Assembly (NCBI RefSeq): GCF_000695095.2
Contig: NZ_CP011454.1
Coordinates: 1,860,001-1,924,000 of the forward strand
DNA: 64,000 nucleotides
Direction of reading: 5' to 3'
Source of the DNA: Gemmatimonas phototrophica
GTDB taxonomy: Bacteria > Gemmatimonadota > Gemmatimonadetes > Gemmatimonadales > Gemmatimonadaceae
Positions 13,448-32,963 of the stretch are shown in pieces. Every line of letters starts with the position of its first letter. Position 1 is the stretch's first letter. The notes under the pieces were generated by a model. It worked only from the letters and a program-made list of their open reading frames with translations. It was not told the DNA's origin and ran no database searches. A program made the position numbers and the translations under genes.

Positions 13448-13853
13448 GCTCTCCGACGACGACGATGACCACCGGCCGCAATGGCTGGTGGTCGCGTCGG
13501 CGGGCGTGTTGTGGGGCATACCCGTTGAGCAGGTTCGTGAGGTCGTCCGCCCGGCCGGCTTGCGCCCGGTCCCCGGATCGCCTGTCATCCAGGCCGGGAT
13601 CGTCAACGTGCGGGGCGCCATCGTCACAGCCTTGGACCTGCAGGCGCTCCGAACGGGAGAGCGTGCCGTTACGCCGGGATCAATCGTCTTGCTTCAGCAC
13701 GGGGCCCGGCCAATCGGGCTCGTCGTGGATACCGTGCACGATGTGCGAGGCGCGACGCCGGAGTCTCCGGATGCCCCCGCCGGCGTAACGGTTCTGGACG
13801 CGGTCGCGCTCTGCGCGCGGTATCTGCACTCAGCTGAGGAGAGAGCACGGTGA
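13383..13853 (+). CDS. cheW: CheW-like chemosensory coupling protein 1
   Basis: CheW links chemoreceptors to the CheA kinase in membrane arrays. This 156-residue protein is a single CheW domain: the WLVVASAGVLWGIPVEQVREVV start (about 36-57), the NVRGAIVTALDLQAL segment, and a late GLVVDTVHDV strand. ATG 13383 lies 65 bases inside rluD and gives a short acidic linker before the domain; a later start within that linker cannot be excluded. The stop overlaps the cheY start by four bases. It is the first gene of a chemosensory operon of about 14.7 kb. No receptor gene is in the window, so its partner is encoded elsewhere. Confidence 0.87.
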   Translation: MSSASTIPTNPSEAPAGRLPTELSDDDDDHRPQWLVVASAGVLWGIPVEQVREVVRPAGLRPVPGSPVIQAGIVNVRGAIVTALDLQALRTGERAVTPGSIVLLQHGARPIGLVVDTVHDVRGATPESPDAPAGVTVLDAVALCARYLHSAEERAR

Positions 13854-14215
13854 GCAAGACTGTTCTGATCTGCGACGACGCGATCTTCATGCGGACCATG
13901 GTGGGGGACATCCTCACACAGGCGGGCTTCGAGATTGTCGGTGAGGCCGAAACGGGGATGCAGGCGGTGGAGAAGTACAAGCACCTGCGCCCTGATCTGG
14001 TCACCATGGACATCGTGATGCCCGACATGGGCGGCATTGACGCGGTGCGCGAAATCACGAAGCTCGACCCACAGGCTCGCGTGCTCATGTGCAGCGCCAT
14101 GGGCCAGCAGGCGTTGGTGGTGGAAGCCATTCAGGCCGGCGCCAAGGATTTTGTTGTGAAGCCGTTCCAGCCGAGCCGGGTGCTGGAAGCGGTGAACCGC
14201 GTGCTCGCCGCATAA
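13850..14215 (+). CDS. cheY: CheY-like single-domain response regulator
   Basis: This is a stand-alone receiver domain of 121 residues. The acidic pocket (D9-D10), the phospho-acceptor D54 in TMDIVMPDMGG, S82 in LMCSAMG, and the lysine K104 in VVKPF are all present, so it should be phosphorylatable by the CheA next to it. There is no output domain, as in chemotaxis CheY. The GTG start overlaps the CheW stop (GTGA), which implies coupled translation. The output target is unknown; because no flagellar motor gene is present here, it may act on the polarity module (GTPase and TPR proteins) of the same operon. That link is inferred. Confidence 0.93.
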   Translation: MSKTVLICDDAIFMRTMVGDILTQAGFEIVGEAETGMQAVEKYKHLRPDLVTMDIVMPDMGGIDAVREITKLDPQARVLMCSAMGQQALVVEAIQAGAKDFVVKPFQPSRVLEAVNRVLAA

Positions 14216-14226
14216 GAGCGGTTCCC

Positions 14227-16200
14227 ATGGACGCGGCGCGCTATGCGGCGTTGTTTCAGGCCGAGGCGCGCGAGCATCTCGCCGAACTCGACGCCGCGCT
14301 GCTCGCGCTGGAGGCGTCGGTGCGCGACGGAGCGGATGCGGTGGTCACCAGTGCGCACGTGGCCACCCTGTTTCGTGGTATGCACACGATCAAGGGCATG
14401 GCCGGATCCATGGGCTACACGGCCGTGGAGAAAGTGTCGCACGCCCTCGAGTCCCGGTGCGAGCCACTTCGCAGTGGGGATGAGCCGCTACACGCCGATC
14501 TACTGGCCCTGATCTTTGAAGGCACCGATGTGCTGCGCACCGCCATCGATGACGCCGCGCGGGGGGTCGAGACCCCATCCGCCACGATTGGCTCGCTGCT
14601 CGTGCGACTACGCCGTCCGGTGTCCACCGGCGCAGCGCCTGTAGGCGGCACACCAAGCGTAGTGTCTGCCGATTCTGCGACACGAGTGGGGATGGCCGAT
14701 TCGGCACCTGACGTGGCGAACGTGCGGCATGTGGACGTGCGCCTCGTCAGCGATTGTCCGCTGAAGGGTGTGCGGGCCATGCTGGTGCTGGCCAAGCTCG
14801 GACCGTTGGGGCAGGTACGCGCCACGCACCCCGAGCAATCCCGCTGGCAGGAGGACGGCTTCGACGGCGTCTTCCGGGTGACGCTGGTGAGCGACGCGGC
14901 CGAAGACACCCTCGTACAAGCCGCCATGGCCGCCGGCGATGTGTCACGCGTGCAGGTCCGGTTGCCGGCGCTCACGTCGCAGGTGGCGCGACAGGCGGCC
15001 GATGCGGCCAGTGTGCCAGAGGCCACGCGTACCGTGCGCATTGATGCGCGGCGCCTAGATACGCTGCTCGATCTGGTGGGCGAACTGGTCATTACCCGCG
15101 ACCGGTTGCTGCGGGCCATTGAGGCCGAGGATCATCCCGACCGAGACGTGCAGCGGGCGGCTCGTGATGCGGCCCGCCTGGTGAGTGCCATGCAGGACGA
15201 AGTGCTGCAGGCACGACTGCTGCCGGTTGGACAAGTATTTGATCGGTTTCCGCGACTGGTACGCGATGTCTCGCGTGAACTGGGGAAAGACGTGTCTTTC
15301 GTCATGGAAGGCCGCGAAATCGAACTGGATCGTTCGCTGCTCGACGCTATTGGCGACCCCATTCTGCACCTGCTGCGGAACGCGCTCGACCATGGCATTG
15401 AAGAGCCGGCCGTGCGTGAGGCGGCGGGCAAAGCACCGCGTGGTGAACTCATTCTGCGCGCGGCCCGCGATCGGGCCGCCGTGATCATTCAGGTGCAGGA
15501 TGACGGACGCGGCATTCATCGCGAGACGGTGCTGCACCGCGCGCTGGAGCAGGGACTGGTGCCACCGGACACCGCGGTGCTCACCGATGAACTGCTGCTG
15601 CAGGTCATCGCCCATCCCGGCTTCTCCACCGCCCGACGGGTCACCAACCTCTCCGGTCGCGGCGTGGGAGTGGATGTCGTGAACACGCGCGTGCGCGCGC
15701 TGGGCGGTCAACTGGAAATCGAATCCATCGAAGGCCTGGGCACGGTGGTGACGCTGCGGTTGCCGGTCACGCTGGCCATTACCCGTGCGTTGCTGGTGGA
15801 GGTCCGCGGCAGCACCTTTGCGCTGCCGGCCACCCATGTGGAAGAGGCCATGGAGTATCACGAATCCCTGCGGGTGCATCACGCCGGTGGGCCTGCCGTC
15901 ACCATTCGTGACGAAGTTGTTCCGCTCGTGGCGCTCGGTGAACGGTTTGGGCTGGTTCGCTCGTCAACGTTGGAGAACGTGAATGCTTCCGCCCCCGGCA
16001 GTGGTGTGGATCAGCATCTCGCAATCGTGGAGGCCGGGGGACGCCGGGTGGCGTTGCTCGTGGATGCCTTGGTAGCACAGCAGGACATTGTCGTGAAGCC
16101 GCTCGATGTGGTACGCGGAGCCTCCCCGTGGTTCAGCGGAGCAACCGTGCTGGGTGATGGCAGCCCCGCGCTGATCATTGATGTACCGAGTGTCGTATAA
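14227..16200 (+). CDS. cheA: Chemosensory histidine kinase CheA
   Basis: This cytosolic array kinase has 657 residues. The domain order is P1 HPt with phospho-H53 in GMHTIKGMAGSMGY, a P2-like segment (about 170-245), and the P3 dimerisation helices with LDLVGELVITRDRLLRAI (281-298). The P4 ATPase has LLRNALDHGIE (N box), DDGRGI (G1) and SGRGVGVDVV (G2). The C-terminal P5 CheW-like domain begins near RALLVEVRGSTFALP. All catalytic boxes are intact. ATG 14227 was chosen because the HPt helix starts there; the frame extends upstream into cheY without similarity. The P1 domain should donate phosphate to the adjacent CheY and to CheB. Confidence 0.95.
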   Translation: MDAARYAALFQAEAREHLAELDAALLALEASVRDGADAVVTSAHVATLFRGMHTIKGMAGSMGYTAVEKVSHALESRCEPLRSGDEPLHADLLALIFEGTDVLRTAIDDAARGVETPSATIGSLLVRLRRPVSTGAAPVGGTPSVVSADSATRVGMADSAPDVANVRHVDVRLVSDCPLKGVRAMLVLAKLGPLGQVRATHPEQSRWQEDGFDGVFRVTLVSDAAEDTLVQAAMAAGDVSRVQVRLPALTSQVARQAADAASVPEATRTVRIDARRLDTLLDLVGELVITRDRLLRAIEAEDHPDRDVQRAARDAARLVSAMQDEVLQARLLPVGQVFDRFPRLVRDVSRELGKDVSFVMEGREIELDRSLLDAIGDPILHLLRNALDHGIEEPAVREAAGKAPRGELILRAARDRAAVIIQVQDDGRGIHRETVLHRALEQGLVPPDTAVLTDELLLQVIAHPGFSTARRVTNLSGRGVGVDVVNTRVRALGGQLEIESIEGLGTVVTLRLPVTLAITRALLVEVRGSTFALPATHVEEAMEYHESLRVHHAGGPAVTIRDEVVPLVALGERFGLVRSSTLENVNASAPGSGVDQHLAIVEAGGRRVALLVDALVAQQDIVVKPLDVVRGASPWFSGATVLGDGSPALIIDVPSVV

Positions 16201-16261
16201 AGCAGTCCCTGTAGTGCAGACTGGTGGTAGGAACGATGGCAGCAAGGGCGAGGAACCACTC

Positions 16262-16942
16262 ATGGCGGAAATGACCATGCAGGACAACGAGGTGGGCCAA
16301 TCACAGCCCGACGGTGCACCGCGCTCGGTGGTGCGTTCGCTGAAGGGCATTCAGCTGGACGCCTTGCGCGAAATTGCCAACATGGGCGCGGGGCATGCGG
16401 CAACAGCGCTCTCGCAGATGACCGGCAGTACGATCATGATCAAGGTGCCGGCCATCAGCGTGGCCAGCATTGAAGAGCTGCCGGCGCAGTTTGCTCCCCA
16501 TGAGGAGCCCGTGGCAGCCGTCATGATGCACATGCTCGGCGATCTCACCGGACGTACGTTGCTGGTGTTTCCCAAGCCGACGGTCATGCGACTGGCGGAG
16601 CTCATGCTGCGACGCCCGGTCGGGTCGTCGGTCGCCTTCAGCGAACTCGAGTCGTCGGCCATCAAGGAAACCGGCAATATTCTGAGTGGTGCGTACATGA
16701 ACGCGCTAAGTGATTTTCTGGGCATGTTGCTGCTGCCGTCGCCCCCCACGCTGGTGATCGATATGTCCACCGCCGTGCTGGCGAGCGCCTTCGGAGAATT
16801 CGCTCCCGATCCCGACTCCGTCCTCTGTGTGGAGAGCGAGTTTCTGTTGCGTGAGACGGATCTCACGCTGCGGGGATTCTTCCTGTTGCTCCCCGATCCG
16901 GCGTCGCTGCAGGTCATGCTGCGCGCGCTCCGTCTGGCGTGA
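16262..16942 (+). CDS. cheC: CheC-type CheY-P phosphatase
   Basis: CheC removes phosphate from CheY-P and, in Bacillus, is stimulated by binding CheD. The 226-residue protein carries both phosphatase motifs: E37-x2-N40 in LREIANMGAGHAA followed by P63, and E136-x2-N139 in IKETGNILSGAYMNA followed by a proline pair near 161-162. Spacing from Asn to Pro fits the family pattern at each site, so both active sites look usable. The ATG at 16262 follows a GCGAGGAA ribosome-binding sequence; an upstream in-frame ATG at 16178 would overlap cheA. A cheD gene is present in the same operon, so the CheC-CheD adaptation couple is probably retained. Confidence 0.9.
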   Translation: MAEMTMQDNEVGQSQPDGAPRSVVRSLKGIQLDALREIANMGAGHAATALSQMTGSTIMIKVPAISVASIEELPAQFAPHEEPVAAVMMHMLGDLTGRTLLVFPKPTVMRLAELMLRRPVGSSVAFSELESSAIKETGNILSGAYMNALSDFLGMLLLPSPPTLVIDMSTAVLASAFGEFAPDPDSVLCVESEFLLRETDLTLRGFFLLLPDPASLQVMLRALRLA

Positions 16943-16961
16943 CGTTCGTCAGACCACGCGG

Positions 16962-19643
16962 ATGAACGCCAGTCAGAACGCTTCCGATGTTGGACTCCTG
17001 CGCACGCTGGTCGATCGCATCGACCCGCGTGATCCAGGAGCGTTCAACAATCTGGGGGTGCTGTATCACACGCGCGGCCTGCACGCCGAGGCCGTGGATG
17101 CCTTTCTGCGCGCGTTGGCCATTGACCCGCGCATGCGCACGGCCGCACGGAATCTTGAACTGGCTGCCGCGCTGCCCGGCGCCTGCGATGCGCGTCGGCA
17201 GCGGCTGGACGAGCGCATTGCGCAGAATCCCGATGATCGGTCTGCCTTGCGCGATCTGGCGCAGCTGACGCGGCTCATTGGCCACACGGCCGATGCCATT
17301 CGTCAGCTCGATGCCCTGATCGCCGAAGATCCCGATGACGCGGACGCGCTCTTCGAGCGCGGGCTCATTGAACAACGCGCCGGCGATCTGCGGCGAGCCC
17401 AACGCTGGTTTGAGCGCGCCGTCAATGCCGGAACGCTCGGCAACGCCCGGCTGCATCTCGCCGAAGTGCTGTATCAGCGTGGACAGAACGAGCAGGCCAT
17501 GGAAGTGCTGGATCAGCTGCTTGCGCAGCACCCCGAGCACGCCGATGCGCATCTGCTGCGAGGGTTCGTGCTTGGCGACATGGGGCACCACGAATCCGCC
17601 ATTGCCGCGTCCCGTCGCGCCGCACAGCTCAACCCGGCGCTGGAAGCGCTGCAGGGCGATCTGGTGATTGAACCCGCGCCGGGCGCCTCGGCTGTCGAAA
17701 CGCGCGTGCTGTCGGTGGAGCCCGATGGCGCCCTCGCGCGCTACGGTTTGGGACTGGCTTTCCGGCAGCGCGGATACTTTCGCGAGGCCCGGCAGGAGTT
17801 CAACCGGGCCTTCGCGCAGGGGGAAGATCCGCGTCTGGTCCAGCACGCCCTCGCGGAACTGGATCTGCTCGATGGCGATTCCACCTCTGCCCGCTCGCGC
17901 TACGAAGCGCTGCTCAGCGACGAGGAATCCGCACGCTGCTGGAACGAACATGGTGTCGCGCTGCATCAGGCGGGTGATGTGGCGGCCGCGGCGGACAGCT
18001 ATCGGCGTTCGTTGCGCATCGATCCGCGCCACGCCATTGCCTACAACAACCTTGGCGTGGCCCTAGCGGATCGCGGTGACAGCACCGCCGCGCGGGAAGC
18101 CTTCACGCGCGCGGCCGAATTGGATCCCACCTTGGTCCTGGCCCGACTGAATCTGGCCCGGTGGCAGGCCAGGCATCGCGATCCCATGGCCGCTCTCGCC
18201 CTGCTGCGGGAGCTGGCGGAATTTCATCCGGGTGAGGCCGAAGTGTGGCACACGCTGGGGCGTGTGCTGGTGCAGATGCAGCGTCCCGAAGAAGCGCGTG
18301 ACGCCCTCGTCAAAGCCGTGGAGGTGCGCTCCACGCATGCCGAAGCCCGGTATGCCCTGGCGCAGGTGTTGGAAGCGTTGGGTGACCAGGACGGTGCAGT
18401 GCGTGAAACGCAGCAGGCCCTTACGCTGTCCCCCGTCCGCAAGGATGCCCGATTGTCGGTGGGGATCGACCTGCAGCGGGAATGCCCTGACGCCGTAGGC
18501 CCCGTTGATTTGCTCAGCCTGTTGGGCGGTACACCGCTCACCGGGGTCGAGCTGGGCGACGACGCGGTGGATCGTCTGTTGCCCGAGCAACCGCATGCCG
18601 TCGTCCCCGTTCCGGCACTGGAGGAACGGGTCGCCGCCGCCTGTACTGCGGCCGATGACTTTGCGGTGCGTACGCTGCACGGCGAAGCGGTTGAGCGCTA
18701 TCGCGATGCGCGCACGCTGCTCGATCAGGCCATGAGTACGGCCCCCGCCGACTCCCTCATGGCCCTCTGGCATCGCGCCGCCCTTGGGGAAGCCCGCTCC
18801 TGCTGTCTGCTGCAGAAGGCGGCCGAGGCATTGCCCCTCTTGCGTCGCGTGGTGGCCTGGATGCCGGACGCGCCGGAAGCCCTGGTGCTCTATGCCGCGG
18901 CCTTGGCCGATCATGATGGGACGGCGCTGCGCGACGAGGCCCGGAGTGCCTTGCTGCGCATCATGCGACAGGATCTGGAGAGCGCCGCGATGCTGCACTT
19001 TGCCGGCGATATCGCGCTGCAGTTGCGTGATGAATCGTTGGCCCTTGGCTTCTATCGCCGGGCGCTGGCCAATGACCCCATGCGCCCCACCCCGCGTGTG
19101 GCCATCGCGCGTTTGTTGCGGGAGCGCGGCGATCTGTTGGCGGCCCGTCTCGAACTGGTGGCGGCGCTCACCGCTGTTCCGCACTGGCGCGAGGCCCTCG
19201 TGGAGCTCGCGCGGGTGCATCAGGATGCCGGCCGGCATGCGGACGCGCGTCTGGTGCTCGCCGACCATCTGCGCCGCATTCCCACCGATCTCGACGCACT
19301 GACCCTGTTGGCCGAAGTTCTCGTGGCCGAAGGGCGTACCGACGACGCGCGGGTGGCCGTGGAGCGATTGCTGCGCCACGACCCCGACCACGCGCCGGCT
19401 CTCTGGCTGGACGGTGTGCTGCTCACGGATCAATCGCGTCTGCGCGATGCCATGGCGCGATGGACACGCCTGTCGCAACTCGCGGATGCTGAACCGTATC
19501 GCTCGCGGGCACGTGCGGCGCTCGCCCGGGCCCCCCTCGCTCGCGATGCCGAAGAACATGACATCGTGTTTGACCTCGCCATCATCCCCGACGCTCCTTC
19601 TCCCGCCGTGCGTGTGGACGAGCCGGTGGTAAACGTCGCGTGA
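16962..19643 (+). CDS. Large tetratricopeptide-repeat protein of the chemosensory operon
   Basis: This 893-residue protein is made almost entirely of TPR helices. Recognisable repeats include AFNNLGVLYHTRGLHAEAVD (27-46), AIAYNNLGVALADRGDSTAA and VWHTLGRVLVQMQRPEEA. A less regular stretch of about 90 residues near 530-620 divides an N-terminal from a C-terminal repeat array. No signal peptide or membrane segment is visible, so it is probably cytosolic. It lies between cheC and a DUF4388 gene, near an MglA-type GTPase. In Myxococcus the TPR protein SgmX is an MglA effector that activates type IV pili. A comparable scaffold role is a reasonable hypothesis, not shown by sequence. Start ATG 16962 follows cheC by 19 bases. 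Confidence 0.82.
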   Translation: MNASQNASDVGLLRTLVDRIDPRDPGAFNNLGVLYHTRGLHAEAVDAFLRALAIDPRMRTAARNLELAAALPGACDARRQRLDERIAQNPDDRSALRDLAQLTRLIGHTADAIRQLDALIAEDPDDADALFERGLIEQRAGDLRRAQRWFERAVNAGTLGNARLHLAEVLYQRGQNEQAMEVLDQLLAQHPEHADAHLLRGFVLGDMGHHESAIAASRRAAQLNPALEALQGDLVIEPAPGASAVETRVLSVEPDGALARYGLGLAFRQRGYFREARQEFNRAFAQGEDPRLVQHALAELDLLDGDSTSARSRYEALLSDEESARCWNEHGVALHQAGDVAAAADSYRRSLRIDPRHAIAYNNLGVALADRGDSTAAREAFTRAAELDPTLVLARLNLARWQARHRDPMAALALLRELAEFHPGEAEVWHTLGRVLVQMQRPEEARDALVKAVEVRSTHAEARYALAQVLEALGDQDGAVRETQQALTLSPVRKDARLSVGIDLQRECPDAVGPVDLLSLLGGTPLTGVELGDDAVDRLLPEQPHAVVPVPALEERVAAACTAADDFAVRTLHGEAVERYRDARTLLDQAMSTAPADSLMALWHRAALGEARSCCLLQKAAEALPLLRRVVAWMPDAPEALVLYAAALADHDGTALRDEARSALLRIMRQDLESAAMLHFAGDIALQLRDESLALGFYRRALANDPMRPTPRVAIARLLRERGDLLAARLELVAALTAVPHWREALVELARVHQDAGRHADARLVLADHLRRIPTDLDALTLLAEVLVAEGRTDDARVAVERLLRHDPDHAPALWLDGVLLTDQSRLRDAMARWTRLSQLADAEPYRSRARAALARAPLARDAEEHDIVFDLAIIPDAPSPAVRVDEPVVNVA

Positions 19644-19653
19644 GAGACTGACC

Positions 19654-20778
19654 ATGGCACTCGAAGGCCGACTTCGCGATCTCGCCCTCACCGAGGTGCT
19701 GCAGCTGCTCGCGTTGGGGCGCAAAACCGGGGTGCTGCATTGCCACGCCCCATTGCAGGGGCGGCGAGCCCAGATTGCCTTCAACAGCGGCGCCATCATT
19801 GACGCCGATGTCGCGGGAGTGGATCGGGTCAACGATCTTGCCGCGCCACGCCGTCGCACGTCGGACCGCACCGCCATGGAAGACGCGGTGCAGGATGTCT
19901 TGCTCTGGCGCGACGGTACGTTCCGGTTTGCTCCGGGCGAACGGCCCACGCACGACACCACCGTGCGCCTGGCGGTCGAACCGCTGCTCATGGACGCGGC
20001 CATGCGCGCCGAGGTGTGGCGGCACATTGAATCGCGGGTTCCCCATGCCCGCGTCATTCCCGCGTTTGTTGAGGTGGAGCCGCAGCAATTGCCGCTGTTG
20101 CGCCTCTCGCCGCCCCAGTGGGAAATCCTTACCTGTGTGGACGGGCAGCGCGATCTGATGGCGCTGGCCACGGCCATGCAGCGCGACGTCACCGAAGTGG
20201 CCAAGCTGGTCTTTGATCTCATGGGATCGGGACTCCTGACGCTGCGGGAAGGGCAGACGGCGCCGCGCCAGAACCCCACCCCTCCGGCCACTCCCGCCGT
20301 CCCGACGGTCATCCCGGCCCCGCCCGGTACCGATTCGGCGTTCACCCCCGGGAGTGCCACCGCCGTAACGGCGCCGGACCTGTGGATCCCGTCGTTGAGC
20401 GGGGGGCTGCCCGCACAGCCCTTTGGCGACCTCGACGAAGACTCGCTCTTTGATCCCATCGCCCTCGGCGTACTCACCCCGGAGGGGCTGCCGAGACAAA
20501 ACACACCGTGGCCTCCGGCGGCGTCGGTTGCGCCAACCCCCATTGAACCGTCCTTCCCGGGAGAGCAGCAGGAGGTCGTGGCGACGGGTGCCACGCTGAC
20601 GCAGGATGGACGGATGTTGTGCCAGCAGGGTGACGAACTGGCACGCGCTGGCGATCTTGTGGGAGCGATGGCGCACTGGAACGCGGCCTTGCGGGCACCC
20701 GCTCCTTTGCCGAACGCCGAACGCGTTCGCGAGGCGGTGGCCCTGGCTGCTCGATTGCACGCGCTGCTGCACTCCTGA
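19654..20778 (+). CDS. DUF4388 (PATAN-type) regulatory protein
   Basis: The 374-residue protein begins with a DUF4388 domain (about 1-110), marked by LEGRLRDLALTEVLQLLALGRKTGVLHC, the usual N-terminus of PatA/PATAN-type proteins. A probable winged-helix segment follows (about 150-205, ending in FDLMGSGLLTLREG). Then come a proline-rich, probably disordered linker (about 207-295) and a short C-terminal helical pair that looks like one TPR. DUF4388 is common next to receiver domains, MglA-type GTPases and chemosensory genes and is thought to mediate protein interactions; no enzymatic activity is known. A second DUF4388 gene occurs at 23310. The start follows the TPR gene by 10 bases. Confidence 0.82.
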   Translation: MALEGRLRDLALTEVLQLLALGRKTGVLHCHAPLQGRRAQIAFNSGAIIDADVAGVDRVNDLAAPRRRTSDRTAMEDAVQDVLLWRDGTFRFAPGERPTHDTTVRLAVEPLLMDAAMRAEVWRHIESRVPHARVIPAFVEVEPQQLPLLRLSPPQWEILTCVDGQRDLMALATAMQRDVTEVAKLVFDLMGSGLLTLREGQTAPRQNPTPPATPAVPTVIPAPPGTDSAFTPGSATAVTAPDLWIPSLSGGLPAQPFGDLDEDSLFDPIALGVLTPEGLPRQNTPWPPAASVAPTPIEPSFPGEQQEVVATGATLTQDGRMLCQQGDELARAGDLVGAMAHWNAALRAPAPLPNAERVREAVALAARLHALLHS

Positions 20779-20860: not shown

Positions 20861-21574
20861 ATGCCCATTGTCGATCACGCCACACGGCTGATCACCTGCA
20901 AGCTGGTCTATTACGGGCCCGGTCGGTCCGGCAAGACGACGAATCTCACGTACCTGCATTCGGCGTTGCCGAGCGGGCAGGTGGGATCACTCACGTCGCT
21001 TGCCACCCGTCGCGACCGCACGCTCTTCTTTGACTATCTCCCAGTGGACCTGGGGACCGTGGGGGCGTACAAAGTGCGCTTCCAGCTCTATACCGTCCCC
21101 GGGCAGCCGTACTACAAGGCCATCCGGCAGCTCGTGCTGCAGGGCGCTGACGGTGTGGCGTTCGTAGCCGACAGCCAGCGCCACCGGTGGGACGACAACA
21201 TCGAAAGCCTGCAGGACATGCACGCCAACCTGGCCGAGCACGGGGTTGATGCGCGAGACCTGCCCATCGTCCTGCAATACAACAAGCAGGATCTGCCGCC
21301 GTCACTGGCGGCCAGTGTGGCTGATCTCTCGGCGGCGCTCAACTTTCGTGGGGTTCCCGAGTTTGCCGCCGATGCCCTGAACGGGGTTGGGGTGTTTGAT
21401 TCGCTGCGTTCGCTTGGTCGCAAGGTGCTGCGCCGTCTTGGCGCCGAAGATGGCACACCGGCCGGACAGCGAGCCAATGCCGCGCTGCGCACGCCCGCGT
21501 ATGCGCCGGCGCTGACGGAGGGATCGTTGGAAGGAGCCGTGGCTGAACCGCAGGGATCCGGAGTGGCTGCGTGA
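20861..21574 (+). CDS. mglA: MglA-type small Ras-like GTPase
   Basis: MglA GTPases set front-rear polarity and switch motility machinery in Myxococcus and relatives. This 237-residue protein matches MglA closely: Walker A GPGRSGKT (19-26), the switch-like segment RTLFFDYLPVDLG (53-65), YTVPGQPYY with Q82 at the catalytic glutamine position, VFVADSQ-type FVADSQR (101-107), and the guanine motif NKQD (141-144). The first 195 or so residues form the GTPase; the last 40 are a low-complexity extension absent from M. xanthus MglA. No MglB (roadblock) GAP gene is in the window. It overlaps the next gene, an unusual DnaA-like ATPase, by four bases. A link from CheA/CheY to this GTPase is inferred from the operon. 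Confidence 0.93.
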   Translation: MPIVDHATRLITCKLVYYGPGRSGKTTNLTYLHSALPSGQVGSLTSLATRRDRTLFFDYLPVDLGTVGAYKVRFQLYTVPGQPYYKAIRQLVLQGADGVAFVADSQRHRWDDNIESLQDMHANLAEHGVDARDLPIVLQYNKQDLPPSLAASVADLSAALNFRGVPEFAADALNGVGVFDSLRSLGRKVLRRLGAEDGTPAGQRANAALRTPAYAPALTEGSLEGAVAEPQGSGVAA

Positions 21575-23310
21575 GCACCTCCATGGATCGCACCCTGCGA
21601 TTCGACACCTTCGTGGTTGGCGCCTCCAATCGACTGGCCGTCTCAGCGGCACGCGCGGTAGCCGAAGCGCCCGGGCAGGCGTACAACCCGCTGTTCATCT
21701 ACGGCGGGTCCGGGCTCGGCAAGACCCACCTCGTGGCGGCCATTGCACATCGTGCGCGTGAGATGCAGTCGGCGCTGCGCGTACGGTTCTCGTCGGGAGA
21801 AGAAGTCGCGGAGCTGTTGCATCAGGCCGTGGCGTCGGGACAGCCGCAGCAGTTCCTCGAAGAGTTCGGTGAGGTGGATCTGCTCATCCTCGACGATGTG
21901 CAGTTCCTCACCGGCCAGAAGGAAACGCAGAGCGAACTGCTCCGGCTGTTGAACGTGCTGCTCACCCGTGGACAACAGCTGGTGCTGACCAGTGATCGTC
22001 AGCCGTCGGAAATTCCCGATGTGGATCAGCGACTGCTGTCGCGGCTGAGTGGTGGACTGGTCGTGGATGTCGGCGCCCCCGACTTCGAAATGCGCCTGGC
22101 CATTCTGCGCAATGTCGCGGGCGATCGACAGGTCGATTTTGGCGACGGCGTGCTCGATGAAGTGGCCCGCTTGCCCTTTGGCAATGTCCGCGAGCTCAAG
22201 GGCGCGCTGAACAAGATCACGGCGTATCAGCAACTCGACGGCACGGCGGTGTTGGCCACCGATGTGCGAGCGGTGCTGGGCGTGACCGTCGCACCCCTCC
22301 CGCCCACCCCGCCGGATCGCATTCAGGCCATCATTCCCAACGGCACCGACTACGAAGGCTTTCTGGCCGACGTGCTGCACGAGGTCGAGGAGCGGGTGGA
22401 GCCGTGGCGCGTCCAGATCGGCGAAGCGATCGCCACGTATCGCCCGGAAGGGTGGAACGTGGGCGTGCTGGAGCGCGCCATGACGCTCCCTCAGGCGCCT
22501 GAGGTGGACGGGCTGCTGCGGGCTTATGCCGCGGCCGTCGAGCATATGCGCGGGTTGGAAGCGCAGGCCGCCAGTTTTGACGCGTCATGGCGTGGACACG
22601 CCGCCTTCCGGAATGTCGAAGCCATTCCCGCAGCACAGCAGTTGGTGCAGCAGGCGATCGCCTCGGCCTTGCCACTTCCTCAGCCGTCGCCGGGCTTTAC
22701 CCGCGCCGCCCTGCAGGTTGGCCCGGATAACCAACTCGCCGTGCGCGCCCTCGACGCGGTCGTGGAGCAGCCAGGGAAGGGCTACAATCCCTTGCTGCTG
22801 CACGGCCCCGCCGGCAGCGGCAAAACGCATTTTGCCCACGCCATTGGCAACGCGGTCAAAGAACGCTGGCCCCGCCTCGCGGTGGCCTGCGTATCGGCCA
22901 AGGTGTTTGTCGAAGAGTATATCGCGGCCATGCAGGAAGGCGGCGTGGAACGGTGGCGTTTGCGCTACCGGCACGCGGATCTGTTCATTCTCGATGACTT
23001 GCAGGTGCTCGAAGGCAAGGAACGCACGCAGGAAGAGCTCTTCCACCTCTTCAATCAGCTCGTCGGGCGCAACGCGCAGGTCGTGCTGACCAGCACGCGG
23101 GCCCCCAAGGAGATGATGGGGTTGGCCGACCGGTTGCGTTCACGGTTTGAAGGCGGACTCGTGGTGGTGCTGCCGGCCCGCGAGCGTCAGCGCCTGGAGC
23201 AGCTGGCCGGACGCACGCCGGGTGAGCCGGACCGATTCTTTGAAGATCAGGAAAAGACCATGTGGCACTGGCCCGACCTGGGCGGGCGCCTCATTGAGGA
23301 GTACCGGTAA
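21571..23310 (+). CDS. Tandem DnaA-type AAA+ ATPase without a DNA-binding domain
   Basis: This 579-residue protein contains two DnaA-like ATPase modules. Module 1 (about 10-240) is a complete DnaA domain III: FDTFVVGASNRLA, Walker A GGSGLGKT (45-52), Walker B LLILDD (104-109), a box VII arginine in RLLSRLSGG (R158), and sensor 2 in GNVRELKGAL (204-213). A helical region (255-335) links it to module 2 (about 374-550), with Walker A GPAGSGKT (412-419), Walker B LFILDD (471-476) and RLRSRFEGGL (521-530), but no sensor 2 lid motif. Neither the DnaA N-terminal domain nor the C-terminal DnaA-box helix-turn-helix is present. It is therefore not the replication initiator. It overlaps mglA and touches the next DUF4388 gene. 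Function unknown. Confidence 0.85.
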   Translation: MSTSMDRTLRFDTFVVGASNRLAVSAARAVAEAPGQAYNPLFIYGGSGLGKTHLVAAIAHRAREMQSALRVRFSSGEEVAELLHQAVASGQPQQFLEEFGEVDLLILDDVQFLTGQKETQSELLRLLNVLLTRGQQLVLTSDRQPSEIPDVDQRLLSRLSGGLVVDVGAPDFEMRLAILRNVAGDRQVDFGDGVLDEVARLPFGNVRELKGALNKITAYQQLDGTAVLATDVRAVLGVTVAPLPPTPPDRIQAIIPNGTDYEGFLADVLHEVEERVEPWRVQIGEAIATYRPEGWNVGVLERAMTLPQAPEVDGLLRAYAAAVEHMRGLEAQAASFDASWRGHAAFRNVEAIPAAQQLVQQAIASALPLPQPSPGFTRAALQVGPDNQLAVRALDAVVEQPGKGYNPLLLHGPAGSGKTHFAHAIGNAVKERWPRLAVACVSAKVFVEEYIAAMQEGGVERWRLRYRHADLFILDDLQVLEGKERTQEELFHLFNQLVGRNAQVVLTSTRAPKEMMGLADRLRSRFEGGLVVVLPARERQRLEQLAGRTPGEPDRFFEDQEKTMWHWPDLGGRLIEEYR

Positions 23311-25073
23311 TGGCCATTCGCGGTAATCTCAGCGAAGCGAGCCTCGCCGACGTGCTGCAATTGCTGGCACTCGGGCAGAAAACCGGCTGCCTCAGTATTG
23401 CGCGTGACGGCAGCTTCGGGACCATCCATTTCGCGGATGGCCGCGTGGTGCACGCGTCCATCGTGAATCGGCGTGATCGGCTTGGCGATCGCCTCGTGCG
23501 CCTTGGCGCCGTCGAGGCGGATGAACTGGCCCGCCTGTCTGCGCGGGTAGGACCACAGGATGATCGTGACCTGGCCAAGGCGCTGCTGGCGGGAGAGCGC
23601 ATCGACCGTGAGTTGCTCGTTCAGGTCTATCGCACGCAGGTCGAAGAAGCCGTCTACCATCTTTTCAGCTGGTCGCAAGGCACCTTCACCTTCGAGCCGG
23701 ACGACGAGATTTCGCTGGATACGCCACTCTTTTCCATCAGCGCCGACTCCCTGTTGCTCGAAGGGGCGCGCCGCGTGGATGAGTGGTCGCTGATCGAAAA
23801 GAAGGTCCCATCGTTCGATCTCATCTTCGAGGCCGACGCCGCCCGTGTCACTGCACGGGAAGTGCCGCTGTCAGTGGAGCAGGAACGCATCCTGCCGCTG
23901 CTCGACGGCACGCACGATGTGCACGCCATCCTTGAACGGTCCGGCCTCAGTGAATTTGATGCCGGCAAGGCGCTCTACGGGCTCCTGTCGGCCGGGTATG
24001 CGCAACGCGTCGGACGCAGTGCCGCGCGGCGTCAGCCACCGCCGGAGAGCCGGGTGGCGGAACATCGCAATCTCGGCATTGCCTTCTACAAGACCGGCAT
24101 GCTCGATGAGGCGTCGCGCGAGTTCCGTCGGGTGCTGGAGCTGCGCGACTCCGACGGGATCTCCCGGTTCTACATCGGACTGGTTCACGCGCGGCGCGGT
24201 GAATGGGCCGACGCCGTGAGCACGTTTGCCCGCGCGGCGCAGGAGCCCGACGCCCCCTCGGCGGTGTTGCACAATCTGGCGTTCGCGCTCGAGCGTACCG
24301 GCGAGCACGCACAGGCGTCATTGGCACTCGACGAAGCCCTGCGCCGTGCGGCGGGCATGCCGGATCCCCGGCTGGCGCTGTCCCGCGCCACGAGTTTGCT
24401 GGAGGCCGGCGATCTGGGCGGTGCCGAAGCCCAGCTGGCCGAGGCTCGGGCACTCTGGGGCGCCCGTCAACCGTCCGCGGCATGGTTTCATGCAGCCGGC
24501 CTCGCGGCGGCACTGGGTGGGGACAGCTTGCGTGCGGCGGCACTGCTGGAAGAAGGGCTCGCGGTCTATCCGCACGCCGTGCCGTTGCACAACAATCTGT
24601 CGGTGGTGCAGGAGCGGCGCGGGAGCTATGAGCTGGCAGCGCGCACGCTGGAGCATGCCCTGCTCGAAGACGCCAATTGCGCGCACCTGCACAAGAACCT
24701 CGGCGACTATCTGTATCGCGCCCAGCGGTACGATGAAGCCTTCGATGCGTTTACGCGAGTGGTCCGCCTGGCGCCGGCGCATGGCCCCGATGTCTATCTC
24801 AAGCTGGGCAACATCCACTATCGTCGTGGAGCCCTTGACGCGGCGCACGACGCGTGGGAGCAGGCGCTCGTGCTGGATCCTGAGAATCGGATTGTGAAAG
24901 CCAATCTCTCGGCGCTGCCGCGGACCGCGCCAGCTGAGGTGGTCGAAACCGCCATCATTGGCGCGGCCGTCGCGGCCGTGCATGCCGTGGAGACTTCGGG
25001 CACCGATGCGGCCGCCGTGCCGACGGCGGCCGAAGGGGACGATGCCATGGCGGCGTTTGGGATGGACGCATGA
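23310..25073 (+). CDS. DUF4388 protein with C-terminal TPR array
   Basis: This 587-residue protein has an N-terminal DUF4388 domain (about 1-130; IRGNLSEASLADVLQLLALGQKTG) and a probable second PATAN or winged-helix part (about 130-240, including LLDGTHDVHAILERSGLSE). Six or more TPRs follow from residue 250 to 535, for example HRNLGIAFYKTGMLDEASREF, then a short Ala-rich tail. It looks cytosolic. It shares the DUF4388 start with the gene at 19654, so the operon encodes two related scaffolds, one short and one fused to TPRs. The ATG overlaps the last base of the DnaA-like gene stop and its own stop overlaps cheD, which indicates coupled expression. No enzymatic function is visible. Confidence 0.83.
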   Translation: MAIRGNLSEASLADVLQLLALGQKTGCLSIARDGSFGTIHFADGRVVHASIVNRRDRLGDRLVRLGAVEADELARLSARVGPQDDRDLAKALLAGERIDRELLVQVYRTQVEEAVYHLFSWSQGTFTFEPDDEISLDTPLFSISADSLLLEGARRVDEWSLIEKKVPSFDLIFEADAARVTAREVPLSVEQERILPLLDGTHDVHAILERSGLSEFDAGKALYGLLSAGYAQRVGRSAARRQPPPESRVAEHRNLGIAFYKTGMLDEASREFRRVLELRDSDGISRFYIGLVHARRGEWADAVSTFARAAQEPDAPSAVLHNLAFALERTGEHAQASLALDEALRRAAGMPDPRLALSRATSLLEAGDLGGAEAQLAEARALWGARQPSAAWFHAAGLAAALGGDSLRAAALLEEGLAVYPHAVPLHNNLSVVQERRGSYELAARTLEHALLEDANCAHLHKNLGDYLYRAQRYDEAFDAFTRVVRLAPAHGPDVYLKLGNIHYRRGALDAAHDAWEQALVLDPENRIVKANLSALPRTAPAEVVETAIIGAAVAAVHAVETSGTDAAAVPTAAEGDDAMAAFGMDA

Positions 25074-25552
25074 CGACGCTGATCAACGTGCCCATTGCCG
25101 ATCTCGCGGTGGCCACGGCCGACAGTACGCTGGTGACCACCGGGCTGGGGTCCTGCGTGGCGATCGCGCTGCACGACGCCCGGCAGCAGGTGGGCGCTCT
25201 GGCGCACGTGTTGTTGCCGCATGCCGCGCTGTCGTCACAGGCGCCGCGTGAGGGAAAGTTTCCCTCCACCGCTGTGCCGGCCATGCTGGCGCGCATGCGC
25301 GCCCTCGGGGCCACCGGGGAGATTCACGCGCGGCTGATTGGCGGGGCATCCATGTTCGGACCGCTGTTGCCGGCCGGCGCCGTGGGACTCGGGGTCCGCA
25401 ACGTGAAAGCGGCGCGACAGGCCTGCGCCGACCACGCTGTCCCCATCGTTGGTGAAGAGGTTGGCGGGACCATGGGCCGGTCGGTGTATTTCCATGTCGG
25501 CACGGGGGCCGTGCAGGTGCGCACGGTGCGAGGTGATCATGTCGAGCTGTGA
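25070..25552 (+). CDS. cheD: Chemoreceptor glutamine deamidase CheD
   Basis: CheD deamidates glutamines in chemoreceptors and, where CheC exists, binds and stimulates it. The 160 residues contain the catalytic cysteine C29 in TTGLGSCVAIALHD, the histidine H46 in LAHVLLPH, the GKFPSTAVPAML segment with the third active-site residue, and ARLIGGASMF. It overlaps the DUF4388-TPR gene by four bases and cheB by 14. CheD with CheB shows that the cognate receptors, encoded elsewhere, are covalently modified. No methyltransferase CheR is visible in the window. Confidence 0.94.
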   Translation: MTTLINVPIADLAVATADSTLVTTGLGSCVAIALHDARQQVGALAHVLLPHAALSSQAPREGKFPSTAVPAMLARMRALGATGEIHARLIGGASMFGPLLPAGAVGLGVRNVKAARQACADHAVPIVGEEVGGTMGRSVYFHVGTGAVQVRTVRGDHVEL

Positions 25553-26675
25553 ACCAGGATTCGGTGCCGCCTCTCCTCGCGACCCGCGCCGAACGGTTCT
25601 TGTAGTGGACGACAGCGCCTTCATGCGCAAGCTGGTGAGTGAGGTGGTGGAATCCAGCGGTGAGTTTCGCGTCGTGGGGACGGCGCGCGACGGACAGGAT
25701 GCGCTGAAGCAGGTGGCAACGCTCAATCCCGATCTCGTCACGCTCGATGTGGACATGCCGGGACTCGACGGTCTGGCGGCGCTTGAGTTTCTCATGCGTG
25801 ACCATCCCCGACCGGTGGTGATGTTGAGTGCCGGTGGTAGCGATGGTGGGGCCGATGCCACTTTGCGCGCCCTTGAACGCGGCGCCGTGGACTTCGTGCG
25901 AAAGCCGTCGGGGGCGATCAGTCTCGATCTGGATCTGGTGCAGGAGCAGCTGCTGCAGGCCCTGCGGGCGGCGGCCACGGTGCAGGTGACGTCGCATCCG
26001 TTGTTGGCCTCGGGACACACGCCCGCACCACCGCGCGCGGTGCCGGCGCAGATTCCGCTGGCCGGTGCGCCCGCGCGCGTGGTGTGCATTGCCGCGAGTA
26101 CCGGAGGGCCCGCGGCACTCGCGCAGCTGCTGCCGGCGCTGCCCGCCTGGAACGACACGGCCGTGCTCATTGTGCAGCATATGCCACCGGGCTTTACCGG
26201 CAGCTTTGCCCGACGCCTCGATGCCGCGTCAGCCCTCACCGTGCACGAAGCCACCGACGGCGCGCCGTTGCGGGCCGGGCATGCCTACGTCGCGCCGGGC
26301 GGGCTGCACCTGCGGGTGCAGGGGCCGCGTGAAGTGCCCCGTCTCGTGCTGAGCAATGATCCCAGCGTATGGGGGGTGCGCCCCGCGGCCGATCCGCTCT
26401 TTCACTCCGCCGCGAGCGTCTACGGCGCACAAGCGGTGGGGTTGGTACTCACCGGCATGGGACGCGACGGCGCCGAAGGGTTGCGTGCCATTCGCACGGC
26501 GGGCGGGCGTGGCATCGTGCAGGATCATGCGTCGGCCATCGTCCCGGGGATGCCCGATGCGGCCCGCCAGTTGGCCGGCGCCGACGCCGTGGCCTCATTG
26601 CAGGACCTGGCAGCGGTCGTGGTCGCGCAGGTGGACGCCTTGCAGCAACGGCCGCCTCTCCAGGAATCCGCATGA
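25539..26675 (+). CDS. cheB: Protein-glutamate methylesterase CheB
   Basis: CheB removes methyl groups from chemoreceptors and is activated by CheA phosphorylation. The 378 residues comprise a receiver domain (about 18-140; D24-D25, phospho-acceptor D70 in TLDVDMPGLDG, K122 in FVRKPSG) and a methylesterase domain (about 178-365). The latter has the triad S187 in IAASTGG, H214 in VQHMPPGFTGSFARRL and D310 in TGMGRDGAEG. All catalytic residues are present. ATG 25539 overlaps the end of cheD by 14 bases; the frame continues upstream into cheD without similarity. It lies 10 bases before a second CheW-like gene. Confidence 0.95.
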   Translation: MSSCEPGFGAASPRDPRRTVLVVDDSAFMRKLVSEVVESSGEFRVVGTARDGQDALKQVATLNPDLVTLDVDMPGLDGLAALEFLMRDHPRPVVMLSAGGSDGGADATLRALERGAVDFVRKPSGAISLDLDLVQEQLLQALRAAATVQVTSHPLLASGHTPAPPRAVPAQIPLAGAPARVVCIAASTGGPAALAQLLPALPAWNDTAVLIVQHMPPGFTGSFARRLDAASALTVHEATDGAPLRAGHAYVAPGGLHLRVQGPREVPRLVLSNDPSVWGVRPAADPLFHSAASVYGAQAVGLVLTGMGRDGAEGLRAIRTAGGRGIVQDHASAIVPGMPDAARQLAGADAVASLQDLAAVVVAQVDALQQRPPLQESA

Positions 26676-26685
26676 GACCCCCCCG

Positions 26686-27168
26686 GTGACCCACACCTTT
26701 CGCTCCATCAGCGGCCTCGCCTCCCGGCGTCGTGCGCGCCCGGCTGTGGAGCGGGCGACCTTTGTGGTGGCGGCCATTGGTGCCTCACGCCTCGCCTTTC
26801 CCGTGGAATGGGTGGAGCGGGTGCTGCGCAACACCACGGACAGCGCCGACGCTCCCCTCGCGTACGGGCATCGTGCGCTCACGGTCTGTGATGTGGCCGC
26901 GTCCCTCGGCCTGACGGCGGCGCCGGTGCCGTCGGTAACCCGCCGTGTGCTGGTGCTCCGTGATGCCTCGCTCGCCGCCGATGGGTGCGCCGTCCTGGTG
27001 GATAGCGTCCATGAGGTCTTCGCGGTGGAAATCGCGCATATTCGCCCGGTGACCGACGGTGCGACGGCCGATATCGCGCGGCACTCCGCCATTCGTGGCG
27101 TCTTCGAACGCGACGCACACGAGGTGTGGGTGCTGGATCCGTCACGACTGCTGCGAGAGGTTGCGTGA
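26686..27168 (+). CDS. CheW-like domain protein 2
   Basis: This 160-residue protein consists of a basic N-terminal tail (about 1-28) and one CheW-like domain. FVVAAIGASRLAFPVEWVERVLR (about 27-49) matches the first CheW strands, and CAVLVDSVHEVFAV matches the late VD-V-E segment. Its similarity to the first CheW is low, so it may couple a different receptor or act as a diverged partner of CheA. The GTG start at 26686 was chosen because it follows the cheB stop by 10 bases; no ATG lies in frame there. The stop overlaps the next GTG by four bases. Confidence 0.75.
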   Translation: MTHTFRSISGLASRRRARPAVERATFVVAAIGASRLAFPVEWVERVLRNTTDSADAPLAYGHRALTVCDVAASLGLTAAPVPSVTRRVLVLRDASLAADGCAVLVDSVHEVFAVEIAHIRPVTDGATADIARHSAIRGVFERDAHEVWVLDPSRLLREVA

Positions 27169-28124
27169 ATCCGCACGACTCGGGGACACCGCGCCACATG
27201 CCGGCGCATCAGGCGTATACCCTCGCGGAACGGCTGCAGGCATTGCGGGAGGCCCTCGATCAAGCCTGCCAGGCGCACACGCTGCAGCCCGTCACCCCCG
27301 ATCAGCGCGAACTGCTCAAGCAGCAGATCATCGCGCTCTTCCGCGAGGCGGACGCCGCGCTGCAGCAGGCGCAGGCCATGAAGGAGGCGGTGAAGGGGCT
27401 GGCCGACCAATGGAAGCATCTGGACGGGCGCGGCGTGGGGACCGTTCCCGGCGCGGGTGCCGAGGTGCACCGACCGACGCCGGTGGCGTCAACCACCGTG
27501 TCCGCCACGACCGGGCGCGTCGATCATCTGGGCGCCTCCACCTTTCTTGAGAAAGGGTGGAGCAAGCTGGCGCTGCTGGATGCCCCTGGCGCCGAAGCGG
27601 CGTTCAGGCGGGCGCTCGACTTGGCCCCGGGGAGCCTCGAAGCGCAGTCGTTGCTGTGCTGGGCGCAGATGCAGCAGGAGAACTACGATGCCGCTCTGCT
27701 GACGCTGCAGTCGGTCTTGTCGCTTGATCCCCATAACGCCCTGGCCCACGCAAACCTGGGGTATATCTGCCTCCGGCGGAAAGCGTATGGGGAAGCCATT
27801 GAGCACCTCTCCACCGTCATCCGCGCCGACGCCGATCGCCGCGCCGTACTCTACGCCCACCTGTATCTGGGCATGGTGTACCGGGAGCGGGAGATGTACG
27901 ACGACGCCGAGGCGTTCTTTATGCGCGCTCTGGAACTGGGACCCAACCTGCTGCAGGCGTGGTACGAGCTCGGACGGGCCCGGTGGTTTGCCGGCCGCCC
28001 GGATGAGGCGAGGCAGGCGTGGAAAACGGGGAGCGAGGCGAACAAGTTCAGTCCATGGGGCAAACGCTGCGCGGAGGTGCTGCAGATGGTGGAGCAGGGG
28101 GGCGCGCCCTCCCGCGAGGGATAG
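27165..28124 (+). CDS. Small TPR protein closing the chemosensory operon
   Basis: This 319-residue protein has an N-terminal helical, Gln-rich segment (about 18-85, probably coiled coil), a Thr/Pro linker, and four to five TPRs (about 120-300), including AHANLGYICLRRKAYGEAIEHL and LGMVYREREMYDDAEAFFMRAL. No signal peptide is seen. The GTG at 27165 overlaps the CheW-2 stop (GTGA); ATG 27198 is an alternative start. It is the third TPR-bearing gene of the cluster. Its role is unknown, but the repeated association of TPR proteins with Che and MglA genes suggests an adaptor. Confidence 0.78.
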   Translation: MNPHDSGTPRHMPAHQAYTLAERLQALREALDQACQAHTLQPVTPDQRELLKQQIIALFREADAALQQAQAMKEAVKGLADQWKHLDGRGVGTVPGAGAEVHRPTPVASTTVSATTGRVDHLGASTFLEKGWSKLALLDAPGAEAAFRRALDLAPGSLEAQSLLCWAQMQQENYDAALLTLQSVLSLDPHNALAHANLGYICLRRKAYGEAIEHLSTVIRADADRRAVLYAHLYLGMVYREREMYDDAEAFFMRALELGPNLLQAWYELGRARWFAGRPDEARQAWKTGSEANKFSPWGKRCAEVLQMVEQGGAPSREG

Positions 28125-28141
28125 CGCGCGGCGTTTGGCGC

Positions 28142-29101
28142 ATGGTCGCGCGCGGGCTGGGCCTATTCAGTCGTGCCCTGATGTTGCTGGTGGTGGTGGC
28201 GGGAGCGGGCGCGGCCCAGCCGTCAACGGCAAGCGGCGTTCGTCTCGATGGCGGCCGGTTTACTGTGGTGGCGCAACCGCGCGACGAACGACTGGCCCGC
28301 TCGCTCCTGCAGGAAGCGCAGCGCCGCGACACGTTCCCCGGTCTTCCCCGGCCTCGCGAGCGGGTGCTCATTGCCATCGCGCCCGATGCCCCGACGCTAC
28401 GCGCCTGGGTTGGCCCCAATGCCCCCGAGTGGGGGGCCGCCTTTGCCTTTCCCGACCAACGCAAGATTGTCATGCAGGGGAGCCGCGCCAATTCCGACGC
28501 AGGCGATCCGCGTGTGGTCCTGCGTCATGAACTGGCCCACCTGGCGCTCTACGAAGCCATGGGGCGATTGCCCCCCCGCTGGTTCAACGAAGGCTACGCC
28601 AGCGTGGCTGCGGGAGAATGGACGCGGGAACAGGCGTTCGAAACATCGTTGGGTATGGTCTGGCGCACATTGCCAACGCTGGAGCAGCTGGAGCAAGGCT
28701 TTGCCGGAGGCGGCATGGAGGCCTCCTGGAGCTACGCCATGGCGCACCGGGTGGTGAGCGAACTGGAGACGCTGGGGGGCCCCGCCGGTCTTGCCAACCT
28801 GCTGGCGTATTGGAAGGAGACCGGCTCGCTGGAGAAGGGGATCCGGTCGGCGTATGGCATGACCGGTGACGGCTTCGAGAAGCACTGGCGGGCTCAGACG
28901 CGCTCGCGATATGGCGCCCTCGCCTTCGTCACGAACATGTCGTTGATCGTGGGGTTCTTCTCGCTGGTCATGGTGCCGCTCTTCATCCAGCGCCGGCGAC
29001 GGGACCGCGTCAAGCTCGAGGCCATGCGGGCCGCTGACGCGCAGCAGGAACGTGAAGCCCGCGAGAGCGCCCTGCAGGCCATTCTGGAAGGGGCAACCTG
29101 A
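28142..29101 (+). CDS. Membrane-anchored gluzincin-type metalloprotease
   Basis: The 319-residue protein has a signal peptide or anchor (about 8-25, LFSRALMLLVVVAGAGAA), an extracytoplasmic domain with the zinc motif HELAH (about 131-135) followed by WFNEGYA, whose Glu is the likely third zinc ligand, and a C-terminal membrane helix (about 262-282). A basic stop-transfer RRRRDR and a charged cytosolic tail end the protein. The layout fits peptidase MA-like proteases. Start ATG 28142 lies 17 bases after the TPR gene; a longer frame into that gene exists but would bury the signal sequence. The substrate is unknown. Position at the end of the chemosensory run may be coincidental. Confidence 0.82.
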   Translation: MVARGLGLFSRALMLLVVVAGAGAAQPSTASGVRLDGGRFTVVAQPRDERLARSLLQEAQRRDTFPGLPRPRERVLIAIAPDAPTLRAWVGPNAPEWGAAFAFPDQRKIVMQGSRANSDAGDPRVVLRHELAHLALYEAMGRLPPRWFNEGYASVAAGEWTREQAFETSLGMVWRTLPTLEQLEQGFAGGGMEASWSYAMAHRVVSELETLGGPAGLANLLAYWKETGSLEKGIRSAYGMTGDGFEKHWRAQTRSRYGALAFVTNMSLIVGFFSLVMVPLFIQRRRRDRVKLEAMRAADAQQEREARESALQAILEGAT

Positions 29102-31459: not shown

Positions 31460-31546
31460 CACTCGGGAAAATCAGGATGGACCGTTGCGCCATCACATCC
31501 GTGCGAGTGTACGGGTAATGCACATTTTTGCACGCGTCGCCATCTG

Positions 31547-31576
31547 TTGACGCTGCCGTCTGTTTCTCACTATCAT
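31547..31576 (+). promoter_or_regulatory. Likely sigma-70-type promoter of the dcw cluster
   Basis: TTGACG (31547-31552) and TATCAT (31571-31576) are separated by 18 bases, immediately downstream of the strong terminator and about 84 bases before the rsmH start. The location is the only place where a promoter for the division cluster is required. It is predicted from sequence alone; it could be tested by transcript start mapping. Confidence 0.55.
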
Positions 31577-31659
31577 GCCCGTCGCGACGCTCTTCTACGC
31601 GCCCGTCGAGGCGCCTTTGCCGTATCCATGACGCGCCTGTTCGTTTGCCCAATCCGCGC

Positions 31660-32610: not shown

Positions 32611-32963
32611 TGGCTGCCACGCGCCGCACCAGCACCCGCAAAACGCGAACCCCGCTCAAAGGGCGGGCGCTGGTGGCTATCGGTCTGGCGATTTTTTTCA
32701 TCATCACTACGGCGATCGTGACGCGGCGTTCGACGGGGATCGAGACGGCGCGGCAATTGGGCCGGTTGCGTGAAGAGCAGCGCACACTCCTGGCGCAGGA
32801 AAAGTTCTTTGAAAACGAACTCCGGAAAGCCACCAGTCGCCGCTCAGTGGTGCAGGAAGCGCAGAAGCGTTTGAACATGATTCGCCCCTCCGAAGCGCAG
32901 GTACGCTTTCTGGTAGCGCCAGCCGGGAGTGCCGCCGCGCCGGACAGTGTGGAGCAACCATGA
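32610..32963 (+). CDS. ftsL: FtsL-like division protein
   Basis: This is a short bitopic membrane protein of 117 residues: a basic cytosolic start (about 1-24), one membrane helix (about 25-42), a coiled coil (about 52-92) and a Pro/Ala tail. That architecture and the place between rsmH and ftsI identify FtsL, which with FtsQ and FtsB activates septal peptidoglycan synthesis. FtsL sequences are poorly conserved, so the call rests on topology and context. The start overlaps the rsmH stop and the gene overlaps ftsI by four bases. Confidence 0.8.
   Translation: MAATRRTSTRKTRTPLKGRALVAIGLAIFFIITTAIVTRRSTGIETARQLGRLREEQRTLLAQEKFFENELRKATSRRSVVQEAQKRLNMIRPSEAQVRFLVAPAGSAAAPDSVEQP

Follow-up and report, generated by a model that had tools for sequence, protein, structure and literature searches.

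The window, a stretch of 64,000 nucleotides of Gemmatimonas phototrophica DNA, carries within a chemosensory/MglA gene cluster a gene for a protein with two DnaA-type AAA+ modules. At the level of sequence, it was confirmed as a DnaA-type AAA+ protein without the DNA-binding domain. We put forward, with confidence that stays somewhat below even, that a tandem, stripped initiator-type AAA+ protein was recruited once, before the split of two phyla, as the ATP-driven core of a PATAN–TPR/chemosensory output complex. It would represent a class of signaling/polarity ATPases, to which the MglA input was added in most lineages.

The gene is an open reading frame with a GTG start. Two Bac_DnaA AAA+ stretches were recognized in its product (Pfam PF00308, E value of 1.2e-100 for the whole protein), the NCBIfam DnaA model TIGR00362 matched it twice (5.8e-132), and the closest solved structures were those of DnaA, with 8bv3 aligned over query residues 9–225 (4e-52). 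Among the families shown for the window protein and 12 homologues (13 aligned sequences), no Pfam match to the DNA-binding domain IV of DnaA was present, and domain I is absent, the AAA+ module beginning inside the first 10 residues. The lack of domain IV ruled out a replication initiator. The following features were assigned to the protein:

21571–23310, + strand: tandem DnaA-type AAA+ protein of 579 aa (Pfam, NCBIfam, orthologues)
21586–22275, + strand: module 1, a complete DnaA domain III with Walker A and B, sensor 1, box VII Arg finger and sensor-2 Arg; Glu at the ISM position equivalent to E. coli R245
22342–22665, + strand: helical linker between the modules, FLxDV...W....EGY.T..LE...F..P.R..EA, with no Pfam match
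22684–23175, + strand: module 2, a DnaA core with Walker A and B, Arg finger RLRSRFEGGL and DnaA-like ISM (I451, R485), the lid being lost in the genus
23251–23307, + strand: C-terminal Trp tail EKTMWHWPDLGGRLIEEYR, including W567

Module 1 carries every mark of the DnaA-type AAA+ profile, namely Walker A GGSGLGKT (aa 45–52), Walker B LDDVQ, box VII RLLSRLSGGL and sensor-2 NVREL, exactly as the initial annotation had it; its reading of two such modules without a DNA-binding domain was likewise borne out by Pfam and TIGR00362. In module 2, Walker A GPAGSGKT, Walker B LDDLQ and RLRSRFEGGL are followed by a stop short of the lid, so that sensor 2 is missing. That description, also given in the initial annotation, fits the window protein but not its relatives, which carry a lid with S-V-R-E; the lid is absent only from most of the window's genus, and it was within that genus that the loss occurred. 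The helical linker (approximately aa 258–365) and the C-terminal tail EKxxWxWPxxxxRxIEE are both conserved, and the window has a single instance of the Trp-tail motif. A single-sequence AlphaFold model of the protein reached a pLDDT of 41 and a pTM of 0.27, too low to be informative.

Orthologues approximately 40–88% identical to the window protein were found throughout the phylum, in about 150 of the 298 Gemmatimonadota genomes sampled (a count of the listed matches), which ruled out a chance pattern or a pseudogene. The gene occurs in families f1–f5 in the two-module form and in families f6 and f9 in a single-module form; families f7, f8, and f11, as sampled, had canonical DnaA only. A second, separate phylum is represented by two genomes, each of which also encodes the tandem. 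A profile built from 19 homologues and applied with a cut-off of 1e-95 gave no positive genome among 189 Myxococcota (the Sorangium phylum), 148 Nitrospirota and 148 genomes of the Geobacter phylum; the same profile scored true tandem homologues at 1e-163 to 1e-206, and single-module forms would fall near the cut-off. A scan of viral contigs returned short, single-module-sized DnaA-like matches and no tandem form.

In an unrooted tree of the modules, the module-1 sequences all grouped together (support 96/92), as did the module-2 sequences (98/99); both groups included the second phylum, and canonical DnaA stood separately. Each module has a single origin and hence the tandem arose once; the simplest reading of the tree would place this event ahead of the split of the two phyla. 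The usual form in the relatives comprises module 1, the helical linker, module 2 with the lid, and the C-terminal tail. Family f5 has lost both Walker A and Walker B of module 2. In families f6 and f9, module 2 is gone entirely, and the protein of approximately 400 aa, still encoded in the same operon, has retained module 1 along with the linker and the tail; module 2 as an essential part was ruled out on these grounds. Full, half-dead, and single-module forms constitute a natural experiment on the loss of parts in a two-module AAA+ switch. In one genome (G340), there are two paralogues, at loci L177 and L178, and a separate mglA copy precedes each of them; module 2 is degenerate in the manner of f5 in one paralogue, and the contig ends within the other.

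Selection on individual residues was followed in 86 aligned homologues, 77 of them two-module. The Walker Lys K51 and Asp108 of module 1 are invariant (86/86 each), and so is W567 of the tail (86/86), whereas the module-1 equivalent of the arginine finger R285 of E. coli is kept in 80/86 and the sensor-2 Arg in 78/86. Module-1 sites are eroded in some lineages (L061, L062, L181, L188, and L190–L192), hence ATP hydrolysis may not be universal. Module 2 has lost its Walker Lys in 14 of the 77 two-module proteins, which are not 14 independent events, as 10 come from one family; among those from elsewhere are L074 and the apparently related pair L024 and L042. Repeated decay of the module-2 ATP sites, together with the loss of the module-1 sensor 2 or finger in some proteins, is what one would expect from an ATP-binding, non-hydrolyzing scaffold in which the AAA+ modules are only an assembly surface. 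We consider such a scaffold improbable, as the module-1 set of Walker A/B, finger, and sensor 2 was kept in most lineages over two phyla.

The two modules also differ in the ISM. Module 2 has Ile or Val at the position of E. coli V211 in 70/77 proteins and mostly Arg at that of R245; module 1 has mostly His and Glu, with Glu at the ISM arginine position in 69/86. In all 14 proteins without the module-2 Walker Lys, the two box VII arginines, the ISM Arg, and Ile at the V211 position are still present. Such module-specific retention suggests different jobs of the two modules: module 1 seems to be the nucleotide-binding core and module 2 a surface that keeps the finger and the ISM. V211 and R245 of E. 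coli DnaA have established roles in ssDNA binding, and their retention, even after the decay of the ATP site, would suit a module 2 that binds single-stranded nucleic acid via the ISM and links the nucleoid to the signaling complex. We rate this idea lower still than the scaffold: f6 and f9 dropped module 2 yet stayed in the operon, the ISM residues may be retained for packing, and the operon has no DNA-metabolism gene.

The genetic context of the tandem gene in the window is given below:

13002–13853, + strand: CheW, with the domain in the C-terminal half of the ORF and the true start later
13850–14215, + strand: CheY-like receiver
14089–16200, + strand: CheA kinase with Hpt, P2, dimerization, HATPase and CheW parts; start approximate
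16178–16942, + strand: CheC-like phosphatase; start approximate
16827–19643, + strand: large TPR protein; start approximate
19654–20778, + strand: DUF4388 (PATAN) protein
20861–21574, + strand: MglA-type small GTPase (YYGPGRSGKTTN, YTVPGQ)
23310–25073, + strand: DUF4388 (PATAN)–TPR protein, the most constant neighbor of the tandem gene
25070–25552, + strand: CheD
25449–26675, + strand: CheB; start approximate
26356–27168, + strand: CheW-like protein; start approximate
27126–28124, + strand: TPR protein, conserved with the locus
28019–29101, + strand: peptidase MA-like protein that stays at the locus also in the absence of che and mglA

The order of genes is therefore cheW-cheY-cheA-cheC-TPR-DUF4388-mglA, the tandem gene, and DUF4388-TPR-cheD-cheB-cheW-TPR-peptidase MA. 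The end of mglA at 21574 overlaps the GTG of the tandem gene by 4 bp, and the DUF4388-TPR gene, starting at 23310, overlaps its stop by 1 bp, as had been described. From the spacing and overlaps, we infer that the che/mglA/tandem-gene cluster forms a single operon, in which no replication or DNA-metabolism gene is present. Approximately 40 additional residues extend the MglA of the window at its C terminus. The cluster is flanked by the DivIVA/ileS/lspA/rluD stretch (6004–6621) and the mraW/ftsI cell-wall cluster (31528–35059), and the DivIVA–rluD synteny is also present in the f5 loci. An ExeA-like AAA ATPase gene was seen in the Che cluster of both phyla (L049:15161-15961 and L184:2751-3593) and was not found in the operon of the window.

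Across the relatives, the DUF4388-TPR gene lies directly downstream of the tandem gene in 40/40 long loci (L045–L084), mostly at −1 to +1 bp and at 120 bp at most. The mglA gene is directly upstream in 30/30 long loci of families f1–f4, often with the 4-bp overlap, and it is found upstream in all f6 and f9 loci whose contig covers that part. By conserved adjacency, the gene thus belongs to the Che/MglA operon in f1–f4, f6, and f9, with f5 as the exception. The claim that the gene is embedded in a chemosensory/MglA operon stood up, both in the window and in the homologues, which do not usually occur outside such loci. All ten f5 loci have neither mglA nor cheA, and the tandem gene still abuts DUF4388-TPR in the order rluD, tandem gene, DUF4388-TPR, peptidase MA. 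The shared flanks, rluD and peptidase MA, suggest that the f5 locus is the same locus after loss. The peptidase MA-like gene (28019–29101), which persists in loci devoid of che and mglA, may contribute to the same function as the tandem gene. In L069 and L189, cheY, TPR, DUF4388, mglA, and the DnaA-type gene are kept with no cheA in the stretch, which suggests a gradual loss of Che. In the second phylum, one copy stands behind cheY-cheA-ExeA-like-cheC-TPR-DUF4388 without mglA, another two genes behind a DUF4388 gene, and another behind a TPR gene. These contexts, with those of f5, imply that the association with Che/PATAN/TPR either predates the one with MglA or does not depend on it.

They also bear on the relation of the tandem protein to the GTPase. 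The constant position of mglA in f1–f4, f6, and f9 would favor an effector or regulator of MglA that senses MglA-GTP or acts as a GAP or exchange factor, passing the state of the GTPase to the ATPase cycle. In relatives from other genera, mglA is often preceded by a TPR gene and two Roadblock genes; the absence from the window operon of the two Roadblock genes which relatives have between DUF4388 and mglA points the same way, but two Roadblock proteins are still encoded elsewhere in the G. phototrophica genome. Moreover, of 80 other mglA genes, mostly from Myxococcota, Desulfuromonadota, Nitrospirota, and NC10, none had a DnaA module in its flanking sequence (10 kb at most). The earlier suggestion of a switch for the GTPase was not supported as the primary role, given the 10/10 f5 loci and the second-phylum copy without mglA, and for the same reason we hold an effector or regulator of MglA to be doubtful.

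In the reading that we favor, although at just short of an even chance, a chemosensory/polarity pathway has co-opted an AAA+ ATPase derived from DnaA as a nucleotide-dependent adaptor. Hda acts on DnaA through an arginine finger-type action, which offers a model for the action of module 2 on module 1. Module 1 would be the one to bind ATP; its site would be completed and regulated by the module-2 finger of that molecule or of a neighboring one, in the manner of Hda on DnaA. The forms without module 2 in f6 and f9 imply that the role of finger donor cannot be general. The ATP/ADP state would then change oligomerization and, in turn, the docking of the tail and linker on the PATAN–TPR protein; that the tail binds this protein is our guess from adjacency. 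CheA/CheY and MglA would feed into the adaptor complex in most lineages, and the output would probably be the control of surface motility or of a polar machine, e.g., type IV pili. Seven T2SSE-type ATPases scored above the cut-off in the G. phototrophica genome, a kind of match that does not tell type IV pili apart from type II secretion.

The choice of the PATAN–TPR protein as the partner draws on published systems as well. PATAN (DUF4388) proteins were reported near mglA/mglB genes (PMC4316618), a cyanobacterial PATAN response regulator was reported to bind the pilus motor PilB1 (PMC7690835), and in M. xanthus the effector of MglA is the TPR protein SgmX, which acts on or places PilB (PMC11580455). 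On these grounds, the DnaA-type protein may serve to adapt or load the PATAN–TPR protein in an ATP-dependent way.

Comparison with the known systems began with DnaA itself. The tandem protein shares with DnaA domain III (PF00308, TIGR00362; 8bv3, 2z4r, 1l8q) the common AAA+ fold, Walker A/B, box VII, sensor 2, and the ISM, and the match is strong over both modules. It differs in having two modules per chain, no domains I and IV, an added linker and Trp tail, and a signaling operon, and its modules branch apart from canonical DnaA in the tree. The profile check proposed in the initial annotation gave DnaA as the strongest family, with Hda below its cut-off and DnaC/DnaI weaker.

Hda (TIGR03420) is likewise a DnaA-type AAA+ protein without the DNA-binding domain and with the arginine finger kept. 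In contrast to Hda, the tandem protein has two modules, other neighbors, and no clamp-binding motif outside a single homologue (L180, 1/86); its score of 151 bits is below the curated cut-off of 194.8. The score and the missing clamp motif ruled out membership in Hda. A regulator acting on DnaA in an Hda-like manner, coupling chromosome replication to polarity, seems to us very unlikely. In its favor, no separate Hda was found in the G. phototrophica genome, and among solved structures the closest relatives other than initiators are AAA+ domains of the Hda type. The one homologue in question, from the two-genome phylum (L180:9424-11517, − strand), starts with MSAGNQLQLFLNPNFTF, in which QLQLF (within QLQLFL) resembles the beta-clamp-binding motif at the place of that of Hda, but the other 85 homologues have no such motif. 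The operon partners are signaling genes, and several deep families as well as some genomes of the same family have dnaA but not the tandem gene. The binding of DnaA and replication–polarity coupling, also raised in the initial annotation, gained no evidence: a full canonical dnaA with GGRDHSTV lies at contig position ~490 of the same genome, apart from the operon.

DnaC/DnaI and IstB are AAA+ proteins of the initiator clade with the ISM as well, but they matched far more weakly than DnaA, and the tandem gene has neither a helicase nor a transposase neighbor. The MglA–MglB system of M. xanthus with SgmX/FrzS/SopA resembles the locus in its MglA-type GTPase, Roadblock proteins (in the relatives), TPR proteins, Che input, and PATAN nearby; a DnaA-like protein is not described there in the open literature searched, and the search at the 1e-95 cut-off detected none among 189 Sorangium-phylum genomes. 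Our search of largely open-access papers found no description that connects a DnaA-like protein to MglA, PATAN/DUF4388, or chemosensory genes. FlhF/FlhG, MipZ, and ParC are P-loop NTPase switches for position or polarity, but they belong to the SRP GTPase and MinD–ParA P-loop classes and not to the DnaA-type AAA+.

If the proposal is true, a phylum-wide, ancient DnaA-derived protein in Che/MglA operons would show the reuse of a motor for cell signaling, and it would give a handle on the control of surface behavior in Gemmatimonadota-type bacteria. To our knowledge, the known DnaA relatives act on DNA, helicases, transposases, or DnaA itself. The tandem ATPase was kept very long beside chemosensory and polarity genes, in one phylum and a tiny second one, and this suggests that a part of the replication machine was reused for signaling. 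The fold of the tandem protein is that of the DnaA initiator clade; its architecture and setting are new.
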